From positions 61,753-125,752 of the forward strand of contig JAFUWY010000039.1 in NCBI GenBank assembly GCA_017477245.1: a stretch of DNA of 64,000 nucleotides, written 5' to 3'. The DNA is from Bacteroidales bacterium. Lineage in GTDB: Bacteria > Bacteroidota > Bacteroidia > Bacteroidales > UBA932. The notes beneath the pieces are model-generated. The model was not told where the DNA came from and made no database searches. It was given only the letters and a program-made list of their open reading frames with translations. Position numbers and translations under genes: made by a program. Of this stretch, positions 36,073-38,663 are shown one piece after another (position 1 is the first letter of the stretch; every line of letters begins with the position of its first letter).

Positions 36073-37614
36073 ATGGCAGAATATAGCGAACAAGAACTGA
36101 TCCGCCGCGAGTCGCTGGCGAAACTGAGAGAATTGGGAATCGAACCGTATCCGGCAGCCGAATATCCGGTCAATGCCACTGCGGAGCAGATCCTGAAGGA
36201 ATATGATCCCGAAAAGGGCAACCTGCAGGACATCTGCATCGCCGGCCGCCTGATGAGCCGGCGCATCATGGGCGCCGCCTCCTTCGGCGAACTCCAGGAC
36301 GAGACCGGACGCATCCAGGTCTACGTCAAGCGGGACGAGATCTGTCCGGGCGAGGACAAGACGATGTACAACACCGTCTGGAAGAAACTCATGGACATCG
36401 GCGATATCGTGGGCATCAAGGGCTTCGCCTTCATCACCCAGACCGGCCAGCTCAGCGTGCACGCCAAGGAGCTGACCCTGCTGAGCAAGTCGCTGCGCGT
36501 CCTGCCGATCGTCAAGGAGCAGGACGGCCAGGTGTTCGACGCCTTCACGGACCCGGAGCTGCGCTACCGCCAGCGCTACGTGGACCTGATCGTGAACCCG
36601 CAGGTCAAGGATACCTTCATCAAGCGCGCGAAGATCATCTCCACGATGCGCGAGTACTTCAACGAAGCCGGCTGTCTCGAGGTCGAGACCCCGATCCTGC
36701 AGGGCATCCCGGGCGGCGCCACGGCGCGTCCGTTCATCACGCACCACAACGCGCTGGACATCCCCCTGTACCTGCGCATCGCCAACGAGCTGTACCTCAA
36801 GCGCCTGATCGTGGGCGGCTACAGCGGCGTCTACGAGTTCGCCAAGGATTTCCGCAACGAGGGCATGGACAAGACCCACAACCCCGAGTTCACCTGCATG
36901 GAGATCTACGTGGCCTACAAGGACTACAACTGGATGATGAAGTTCGTGGAGACGATGCTTGCCAAGGTCTCCAACGCCGTCAACGGCACCACGAAGGTGA
37001 AGATCGGGGAGAACGAGGTGGACTTCGGCGGCACCTACCGCCGCCTGCCGATCCTCGACGCCATCAAGGAATACGCCGGCGTGGACGTGAGCGGGATGGA
37101 CGAGGATGAGCTGCGCGCCACCTGCAACCGCCTGCACGTCGAGATCGAGCCTTCCATGGGTAAGGGCAAGCTGATCGATGCCATCTTCGGCACCTTCTGC
37201 GAGGACAAGCTCATCCAGCCGACCTTCATCATCGACTACCCGGTGGAGATGTCCCCGCTGACCAAGCGCCACCGCAACAACCCGGCGCTCACCGAGCGTT
37301 TCGAGCTGTTCGTCTGCGGCAAGGAGCTGGCCAACGCCTACTCCGAGCTCAACGACCCGGTCGACCAGCTGGAGCGGTTCGAGGAGCAGGCCCGCCTCAA
37401 GAGCAAGGGCGACGACGAGGCCATGTACATCGACATGGATTTCGTCCGTGCACTCGAATACGGCATGCCGCCGACCTCGGGCCTGGGCATGGGCATCGAC
37501 CGCCTGACCATGTTCATGACCGGGCAGACCACCATCCAGGATGTCCTTTTCTTCCCGCAGATGCGGCCGGAGAAGGTCCTCAAGAAAGAAAACAAGGAAC
37601 AGCAGGCCGAGTAA
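36073..37614 (+). CDS. lysS: Lysyl-tRNA synthetase, class II
   Basis: 513 residues. The anticodon-binding OB domain at the N-terminus carries [20 protein letters not shown] near residue 57. Class II catalytic motifs are [20 protein letters not shown] (motif 2, near 260) and [19 protein letters not shown] (motif 3, near 470). The HIGH/KMSKS signatures of class I LysRS are absent. Its stop overlaps the next start by one base (TAATG). Confidence 0.97.
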
Positions 37615-38663
37615 TGGCTGAAATCATCACTTCGCCTTCGAATCCGAAGGTCAAACAGCTCCTCGCGCTGCAGCAGAAGTCTTCTGCGCGGCGCGAGCGC
37701 GGTCTTTTCGTGGTCGAAGGCCGGCGCGAGCTCCAGCATTGCATCGACGCCGGTTTTATCATCGATACGATCTTCGTCTGCCCAACACTGTCTGAGACAG
37801 CTCCGCTGCACGGGGGCTCTCCCCTGCCGGACTTCGCTTCGCTCATCCCACCGCTGCGCTTCGCTGGCGGTCCCCCCGTTCACGAGGCCACGGGCGGCCA
37901 CGGTCCTGCAGGGGAGAGCCCCCGTTCCGCTGCGCCTGCTGCCGAAGCGGAGACGGCAGCTGCCTCTCCAGCCCGTAGCCACCCTCGGCTCCGTAAGAGG
38001 GAGGGGCCCGCTGCCGAAGGCAGTGGGAGGGGTCCGGCGCAGCCGGACGGCTGGAGAGGCAGGCTGCCGCGAAGCGAAGGGCAGACGAAGGTGTTTGAGG
38101 TCAGCGAAGAGGTGTACCGGAAGATTTCGTATCGTGAGGGGACGGAGGGCGTGATGGCGGAAGTCAAAGTGCCGGAGCGGAAGCTGGAGGGGCTGGAACT
38201 GCCTGAAAACCCGCTGGTGATGGTCCTCGAGTCCGTCGAGAAACCGGGCAACCTCGGGGCGGTGCTGCGCAGCGCCGACGCCGCTGGGGCCGACGCCGTG
38301 CTGGTCTGCGACCCGCTCACGGACCTGTGGAACCCGAACCTCATCCGCGCCTCGGTCGGCGCCGTGTTCACGGTGCCGTGCGTCACGTGCTCCTCGCAGG
38401 AAGCCATCGACTGGCTCAAGGCCCGCGGAATCCGCATCCTGACGGCCCAGCTGCAGGACTCCTCCCTCTACTACGACTGCGACATGACCGTCGGCACGGC
38501 CCTGGTGATGGGTACGGAAGCTACCGGCCTGACGCCCCGGTGGCGGCAGGCGGCCGACGCGCACATCCGCATCCCCATGCTCGGCGCCCTGGACTCCCTC
38601 AACGTGTCCGTATCGGCCGCCATCCTCCTTTTCGAAGCCGTCAGACAACGCCGGAATGGATAG
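37614..38663 (+). CDS. TrmH/SpoU family RNA 2'-O-methyltransferase with about 90-residue palindrome-derived insertion
   Basis: 349 residues against about 250-260 for typical relatives. The N-terminal substrate-binding domain (ITSPSNPKVKQLLALQQKSS) and C-terminal SPOUT knot are intact: ESVEKPGNLGAVLRSADAAG near 203, NPNLIRASVGAVFTVP near 241, MGTEATGL near 301 and IRIPMLGALDSLNVSVSAAI near 320, where the knotted SAM site lies. Between ISDTIFVC-type strand (residue 60) and KVFEVSEEVYRKIS (about 157) sits a Pro/Gly/Ala/Arg-rich stretch. It is encoded by two 116-bp inverted-repeat elements kept in frame. Target is probably a 23S rRNA ribose, not assignable. The stop lies inside aroE. Confidence 0.88.
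   Translation: MAEIITSPSNPKVKQLLALQQKSSARRERGLFVVEGRRELQHCIDAGFIIDTIFVCPTLSETAPLHGGSPLPDFASLIPPLRFAGGPPVHEATGGHGPAGESPRSAAPAAEAETAAASPARSHPRLRKREGPAAEGSGRGPAQPDGWRGRLPRSEGQTKVFEVSEEVYRKISYREGTEGVMAEVKVPERKLEGLELPENPLVMVLESVEKPGNLGAVLRSADAAGADAVLVCDPLTDLWNPNLIRASVGAVFTVPCVTCSSQEAIDWLKARGIRILTAQLQDSSLYYDCDMTVGTALVMGTEATGLTPRWRQAADAHIRIPMLGALDSLNVSVSAAILLFEAVRQRRNG
37810..37925. repeat. 116-bp inverted-repeat element A inside the methyltransferase gene
   Basis: Terminal arms ACGGGGGCTCTCCCCTGC (37810-37827) and its exact reverse complement (37908-37925). A 7-base direct repeat CCGCTGC flanks it at 37803-37809 and 37927-37933, a possible target duplication. The core is similar to element B read on the other strand. 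Confidence 0.85.
37954..38069. repeat. 116-bp inverted-repeat element B inside the methyltransferase gene
   Basis: Left arm CGGCAGCTGCCTCTCCAGCC (37954-37973) pairs with 38049-38069 with a single bulged base. Same total length as element A and a core alignable to A in inverted orientation (shared pieces such as CCCAC, CTTCG, GGCCCC, ACGG). Confidence 0.8.

Follow-up and report, generated by a model that had tools for sequence, protein, structure and literature searches.

A dispersed family of palindromic elements with a conserved pseudoknotted core, present in frame in a TrmH-type methyltransferase gene of a Bacteroidales bacterium

The window analysed here, a stretch of 64,000 nucleotides from the genome of a Bacteroidales bacterium, contains a gene for a TrmH/SpoU-type RNA 2'-O-methyltransferase whose reading frame (37614-38663) remains open through two palindromic elements, A and B. 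The features of the locus are as follows.

37614..38663, plus strand: TrmH/SpoU-type RNA 2'-O-methyltransferase gene, host to A and B (open reading frame; Pfam PF22435 and PF00588)
37772..37783: left arm of P0, the outermost inverted repeat; gene sequence coding F-V-C-P, conserved in orthologues
37802..37809, plus strand: TCCGCTGC, left of A
37810..37925, minus strand (core antisense to the gene): element A, 116 bp; 76.1 bits with the covariance model R1
37810..37827: left arm of the outer stem P1 of A; exact complement of 37908-37925
37908..37925: right arm of the outer stem P1 of A; exact complement of 37810-37827 (18/18)
37926..37933, plus strand: TCCGCTGC, right of A; not general in the family
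37954..38069, plus strand (core on the plus strand): element B, 116 bp; 126 bits with R1
37977..37980, plus strand: B core, 5' side of pseudoknot stem 1 (AGCC); pairs with 37987-37990; family covariation
37982..37986, plus strand: B core, 5' side of pseudoknot stem 2 (CCCTC); pairs with 37997-38001; family covariation
37987..37990, plus strand: B core, 3' side of pseudoknot stem 1 (GGCT); family covariation
37997..38001, plus strand: B core, 3' side of pseudoknot stem 2 (GAGGG); family covariation
38007..38027, plus strand: B core, hairpin P3, variable and covarying
38033..38047, plus strand: B core, hairpin P4, variable and covarying
38079..38090: right arm of P0, GGGCAGACGAAG; inverted copy of 37772-37783

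The boundaries, the 116-bp length and the perfect 18-bp arms that a preliminary description had given for A were recovered on re-examination, as were the boundaries, the length and the one-bulge arms of B; the latter arms measure 20 and 21 nt and contain a 14-bp exact stretch. The same description had assigned the two elements to one family in inverted orientation. Indeed, the global alignment of A with reverse-complemented B scores 25, compared with 9 in the same orientation and with 4.5 ± 4.2 (maximum 18) for 300 mononucleotide shuffles of B, and both elements are among the 20 copies detected in the genome by R1. Pfam places MRM3-like_sub_bind (PF22435) at residues 10-62 of the host protein and SpoU_methylase (PF00588) at residues 201-340, which puts the insert between two conserved domains. 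These are joined by a linker of 135 codons, compared with 44 in the empty orthologue L098, a difference of 91 that agrees with the roughly 90 in-frame residues proposed earlier. All NCBIfam matches of the protein fall under their curated cut-offs.

DNA searches of the genome (2.38 Mb in 48 contigs) with A and with B retrieved dispersed relatives, and 14 of the 20 copies known at that stage were used to build R1. At E ≤ 5e-12, R1 detects at least 20 copies, A and B included, together with one degenerate copy; since the best 150 of 2540 candidates were scored, this count is a lower bound. The degenerate copy (L072, G000:C30:52791-52946) carries additional sequence within its core. Of six pairs of copies lying less than 130 bp apart, five are divergent, with gaps of 30-65 bp. 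When relatives were searched with 60 candidates scored per genome, R1 matches were found in 33 of 37 genomes of the genus (the present one included), with up to 45 per genome, and in none of 24 genomes from other genera of the order, a sample without other genera of the same family. The idea that the genome might hold no further copies, which the preliminary description had set against its own proposal, is refuted by these searches. An exact core pattern run over the genome collection matched at least 120 stretches; the 80 matches listed are all titled Bacteroidales, Bacteroidia, Bacteroidaceae or, in two cases, Candidatus Cryptobacteroides, and by their record titles many of those listed come from ruminant or horse guts. 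Element B and the core pattern had no match in phages, plasmids or viral contigs, and no Rfam family exceeded its gathering score in the window stretch and the 10 loci searched. Within the genomes tested, the family was found in one genus of gut Bacteroidales, probably Cryptobacteroides. Both inserts in the methyltransferase gene are copies of a dispersed family, beyond chance.

The genome has 20 clear copies, of which 18 are located within open frames that match Pfam families; for two TPR genes these matches are only near the cut-off. The trmH gene, a xerC-like recombinase gene and trmB hold two copies each. One copy each is found in rsmF, in an RlmI-type methyltransferase gene, in polA, dnaX, pcrA, tldD and dsbD, in genes for an FAD enzyme and an aminotransferase, in a ygiQ-like radical-SAM gene and in two TPR paralogues. 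The two other copies are L062, at the very 5' end of a PKD-domain frame and probably ahead of the start of that frame, and L066, which has no Pfam match in the frames tested. A second intragenic repeat, coding for RDSDYPAIPLEGAQGV-like peptides, was observed in the RlmI-type gene (L057, twice) and in the ygiQ-like gene (L060).

Relatives provide empty counterparts of several of these sites. Between aligned flanks, the aminotransferase site is empty in G008 (a net gain of 138 bp in the filled gene), and the trmB and rsmF sites are empty in G015 (net gains of 171 bp and 132 bp); each of the three net sizes is a multiple of three. The view of a miniature transposon-like family tolerated in coding DNA is thus borne out by dispersed copies, by empty orthologous sites and by in-frame copies in 15 host genes.

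Orthologues of trmH were surveyed at 30 loci, 29 of them with a readable linker. A clear element is present in eight of the 29 linkers, namely that of the present genome, with two, and those of L096, L097, L099, L101, L102, L106 and L109; the linker of L111 gives a weak match (E 0.53), 20 give no element match, and R1 hits in L104, L119 and L122 fall outside the linker. An insert shared by all orthologues with conserved amino acids, which the preliminary description had named as the mark of an ordinary protein loop, is absent. Some of the 20 linkers hold other repeats. Tandem APRDDNNEG and CHSERSEES-type repeats occupy the linker in L100 and L108 (trmH of G006 and G062), which makes the linker a general landing site, and in-frame hairpins of the GGAGGTCCATCCGAATGTACCTCC type adjoin the element in L096 and L378 (trmH of G027 and G356).

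The insert could instead be a loop of the protein, ordinary or exapted, or an RNA that acts in cis on the host gene; this would be consistent with its forming an open part of the frame and with a core whose fold is conserved and RNA-like. However, copies occur in unrelated genes and in both orientations, 20 of the 29 readable trmH linkers have no match, and the encoded peptide changes with frame and strand, so that we regard an origin of this kind as extremely improbable.

In a closer clade of trmH alleles, whose lysS genes are 89-92% identical (11 genomes measured), the site is filled in either orientation depending on the species, two alleles (L365 and L359) are empty, and a further one (L368) has lost the core and kept the arms. 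The element at this site is in sense orientation in G307, G224, G132 and, as B, in the present genome, and antisense in G089, G143, G388 and G346. The orientation labels are scattered on the lysS tree, with four changes, and inversion and new insertion are therefore both possible at this site. G224 and G346 are sister species whose elements at the trmH site have opposite orientations and different inner arms; replacement or a new insertion would explain this as readily as an inversion. The core is inverted between the paralogous TPR genes L006/L061 and L008/L063. L061 and L063 lie at the starts of contigs C29 and C7 and have the insertion site and the arms in common, with opposite core orientation.

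The anatomy of the element was defined from an alignment of 100 matches from 90 loci, fitted to R1, which contained all stems but stem 1, so that stem 1 serves as an independent check. The core, usually about 75 nt long (55-139), starts with CCGT[A/G]GCC[A/G]CCC in most rows. Stem 1, formed by [A/G]GCC and GGC[C/T], interlocks with stem 2, formed by CCCNN and NNGGG, to make an H-type pseudoknot with loops of 1 nt and 6 nt; hairpins P3 and P4 follow downstream, and the long stem P1 closes the whole. In the core structure 95.0% of the cells are paired, compared with 69.8 ± 0.5% in shuffled alignments, and 892 cells show double changes, compared with 274; when the partners are slid, pairing falls to 36-47%. 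The outer pair of stem 1 is GC in 61 rows and AT in 24, with TA in 11 rows of a variant shifted by one, while two pairs of stem 2 are GC in 44, TA in 41 and AT in 12 rows, and TA in 53 and CG in 46 rows, respectively. Two loop nucleotides, 28 and 42, agree in 95 of the 100 rows (GG in 48, AA in 47). At the 5' foot of the core, GT[A/G]G is found in about 86 of the 100 rows, but it lies inside a longer stem. The conserved part of the element is this internal pseudoknotted core and not the terminal arms.

The mispairs bear on which strand folds. Those of P1 comprise 42 G.T and 16 A.C, and one position of P3 is G.T in 56 of 96 rows; together, the G.T excess in P1 and the single P3 position suggest that folding is required of the core-sense strand, either as RNA or as single-stranded DNA. 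The remainder of P3 argues against this, as it contains two G.T and seven A.C mispairs outside the conserved G.T position. Mobility through RNA, in which a reverse transcriptase supplied in trans would copy the core RNA in the manner of a SINE, could explain both the preference for the wobble pairs of one strand in P1 and the RNA-like fold. It is confronted, however, by the distribution of the enzyme: RVT_1 (PF00078, E ≤ 1e-10) has no match in the present genome, which is 96% complete and has 20 copies, and is matched in only 9 of the 37 genus genomes. RNA-mediated spread therefore appears quite unlikely.

The arms behave differently from the core. Arm identity between copies drops to about 0.25-0.3 by position 13 from the core; a weak consensus returns at positions 17-19, where identity rises to as much as 0.42, pointing to a faint common ancestry of the arms. 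Complementarity between the left and right arms, measured on the 93 elements, out of 101, that were selected because 11 or more of 16 arm positions pair, is 0.67-0.85 up to position 14 and about 0.4-0.7 up to position 27, and reaches background from about position 33. Inverted pairing of at least 8 bp beyond 30 nt was found in 17 of the 93, compared with 1.6% of mismatched pairs. Copies at the same site in G000 and G008, for example in rsmF, differ in their arm letters and keep the pairing; each such pair may go back to one insertion or to two. The trmH alleles of G089 and G143 are distinguished, in either arm, by four letters of a six-letter block.

The direct repeat that the preliminary description had noted around A as CCGCTGC is present and is one base longer, an 8-bp TCCGCTGC, but its reading as a possible target duplication is unsupported across the family and probably incorrect. 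When matched and mismatched flanks were compared, direct repeats of at least 8 bp were counted in 5, 2 or 4 of the 93 elements according to the interval taken, where about 1 to 2 would be expected, and GCAGCGGA-like motifs are found again next to 5 of the 93. A direct target duplication is accordingly not supported as a feature of the family. Direct repeats of at least 6 bp at 18-45 nt from the core are enriched (22 of 93, compared with 13%); the enrichment is attributed, not proven, to common GCGGAG-like motifs. These data bear on the possibility of a classical MITE, in which a DDE transposase would read the terminal inverted repeats and generate direct target duplications. The size and palindromy of the elements and the exact 8-bp direct repeat around A agree with it; the termini, by contrast, are the least conserved part, the longer direct repeats exceed their mismatched controls only slightly, and we judge a classical MITE very unlikely. 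A transposase reading terminal repeats is unlikely for the same two reasons, namely that the ends are poorly conserved and that direct duplications are not seen.

The outermost bases of the trmB copy, and those of some alleles of the trmH clade, are likely to be inverted copies of the flank. At trmB, native gene sequence makes up the left outer arm, and the right outer arm repeats it in inverted form. In trmH, the right junction CAGACGAA is complementary to conserved codons on the left. Of the 12 B-type filled alleles read, 7 have it exactly, G307 and G082 have it with one letter changed, and G008, G331 and G229 lack it; it is also absent from A-type G121 and G249, the remnant G325 and the empty alleles G201 and G104. 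The alleles with CAGACGAA may share one event, and the trmH case could also be due to such an event or to a target hairpin that was already in place. For ygiQ, tldD of G008, the FAD gene and trmH of G008 the codons were compared by eye, a weaker form of evidence. The notion that the arms are whole copies of the target was rejected as a general rule, as the sequence gained in the aminotransferase gene (net 138 bp) includes both arms. L040 (G000:C40:18280-18308) is a remnant in which the outer repeats persist and the core is missing; it carries a 12-bp inverted repeat, TCGGTCTTCGCC, on its flanks, as judged by eye.

Fold-back template switching would account for these facts of arms and junctions. 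Selection for pairing alone could explain the arms, and the G.T excess in P1 is an argument for some such selection. In yeast, template switching between inverted repeats is described as homogenising arms and inverting spacers in coding DNA (PMC8604942). Template switching might even be combined with ectopic gene conversion and replication slippage between palindromes to disperse the family without any dedicated transposase. That both arms change together in the trmH alleles of G089 and G143, that inverted flank copies stand at junctions, that close pairs are divergent and that inverted-repeat template switching is known to have such effects (PMC8604942) all speak for dispersal of this kind. 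Nevertheless, a whole core has been gained at sites that are empty in relatives, as in the aminotransferase gene, and in unrelated genes, and the conserved pseudoknot and the coupling of nucleotides 28 and 42 would be left unexplained; we therefore hold spread by these processes alone to be unlikely.

Two RAYT-like proteins of the present genome, used as queries, gave 12 matches in this genome and matches in 37 of 41 genomes of the genus. The number of RAYT-like genes correlates with the number of elements (Spearman 0.49, p 0.002, n=37, kinship ignored). Of the 20 RAYT-like loci inspected, which cover 9 of the 12 own-genome matches, none has a recognisable copy immediately next to it; a single weak match of 30 bits is situated about 600 bp from a gene, and the other four reach 11-18 bits. 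Several RAYT-like HUH genes are present per genome (L309-L312 and L327-L346; for example G000:C27:12843-13778 and G000:C16:1216-2082), and many of them have gene-specific flanking hairpins of 11-21 bp, resembling TIRtrons. The Y1 transposase family PF01797 matches weakly in 19 of the 37 genus genomes, and it is also matched in 19 of 24 genomes from other genera, which are devoid of the element. As a class of candidates, a single-strand-acting HUH transposase of the RAYT/IS200-like type would be the most likely mover.

Among 101 elements, 131 of 303 frames are open on the core-sense strand and 215 of 303 on the opposite strand. The copies in the present genome are in sense orientation to the host gene in 6 cases and antisense in 12, close to the ratio of about 7 to 11 expected from these open frames after random orientation and loss of frame-breaking copies; at public loci, the clear cases comprise 15 sense and 20 antisense. 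Stops of the core-sense strand are concentrated in one frame (135 of 200), leaving two frames of that strand open and often all three of the opposite one. On average 3.43 frames are open per element, compared with 2.96 in dinucleotide shuffles, an excess over chance of the kind that the preliminary description had proposed to look for; it may be partly survivorship, as many of the sampled copies sit in genes. At 62 public loci with enough flank, a frame of at least 250 codons spans 61% of the elements and 82% of the control windows, so that genes are not preferred. Genes are tolerated by the elements, not targeted.

In-frame palindromic elements are best known from Rickettsia. The sources consulted describe Rickettsia palindromic elements (RPEs) and REPs as palindromes inserted in frame, sometimes two per gene, often in genes for DNA polymerase I, UvrD-type helicases and RNA modification, with tolerant linkers offered as one explanation; they also report REPs at the same site in recB of two Xanthomonas species, and CGTC-tagged repeats, for which no dedicated transposase is said to exist, in Bacteroidetes and further phyla (PMC3733652, PMC10969869). 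The present family resembles RPEs and intragenic REPs in that small, many-copy palindromes lie in frame in genes, often those of DNA synthesis, repair or RNA modification and sometimes two per gene, with empty orthologues; it differs, by description only, in its pseudoknotted internal core, its long-stem arms of poor conservation and its Bacteroidales host. With the GTAG/CGTC-tagged REPs of RAYT transposases it shares the folding as a palindrome, the divergent arrangement of dimers and the abundance of RAYT-like genes in the genus; the GT[A/G]G at the 5' foot of most cores may be comparable to the GTAG tag. REPs, however, are given as 20-40 bp long, with a GTAG tetranucleotide at one end of the hairpin (PMC3733652), and the present element is several times longer, pseudoknotted and not located beside the RAYT-like genes inspected, which themselves resemble the TIR-flanked 'TIRtrons' of the same source (PMC3733652). 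Bacterial MITEs are similar in size, inverted repeats, dispersal and the lack of a transposase of their own, but the present family has neither conserved termini nor a supported direct target duplication. Finally, the homogenised arms and inverted spacers in coding DNA recall template switching as described in PMC8604942. That is a mutational process in yeast rather than an element, and in the present case its substrate would be a dispersed family. Neither this family nor its pseudoknotted core was found described in the literature searched, from which most subscription papers were missing.

The data presented above have led us to propose that the family is probably a non-autonomous, REP/RPE-like mobile palindrome, read through its folded strand, whose insertions are filtered by reading frame and whose arms are kept complementary by template switching, by selection or by both. 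In this model, the element would be recognised as a folded single strand, either single-stranded DNA or RNA, through its core and not its ends, and would insert in either orientation with little site preference. Purifying selection would then retain those copies that leave the host frame open, in permissive linkers. During sequence turnover, the complementarity of the arms would be kept by template switching in the form of quasi-palindrome correction, by selection for pairing or by both, and template switching could also carry gene sequence from one flank over to the opposite junction and invert the core at its site. Beyond this model lies the more tentative, and to us rather doubtful, possibility of a mobile pseudoknot as a new class of bacterial mobile element, whose mobility is set by the conserved three-dimensional fold of one strand and whose arms, not fixed in sequence, renew themselves at each site by fold-back copying that may include host flank as an inverted target duplication. 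If that were true, each copy would build its own palindrome and could flip where it stands inside an important gene.

The probable REP/RPE-like mobile palindrome constitutes a large, clean family in a gut genus, with strong covariation, with both empty and filled sites, and with hosts that include polA, dnaX and pcrA. With it, the spread of selfish palindromes through coding DNA becomes a testable question. Recognition by fold is suggested by the pseudoknotted core, and the complementary, fast-changing arms would constitute a natural record of template switching.
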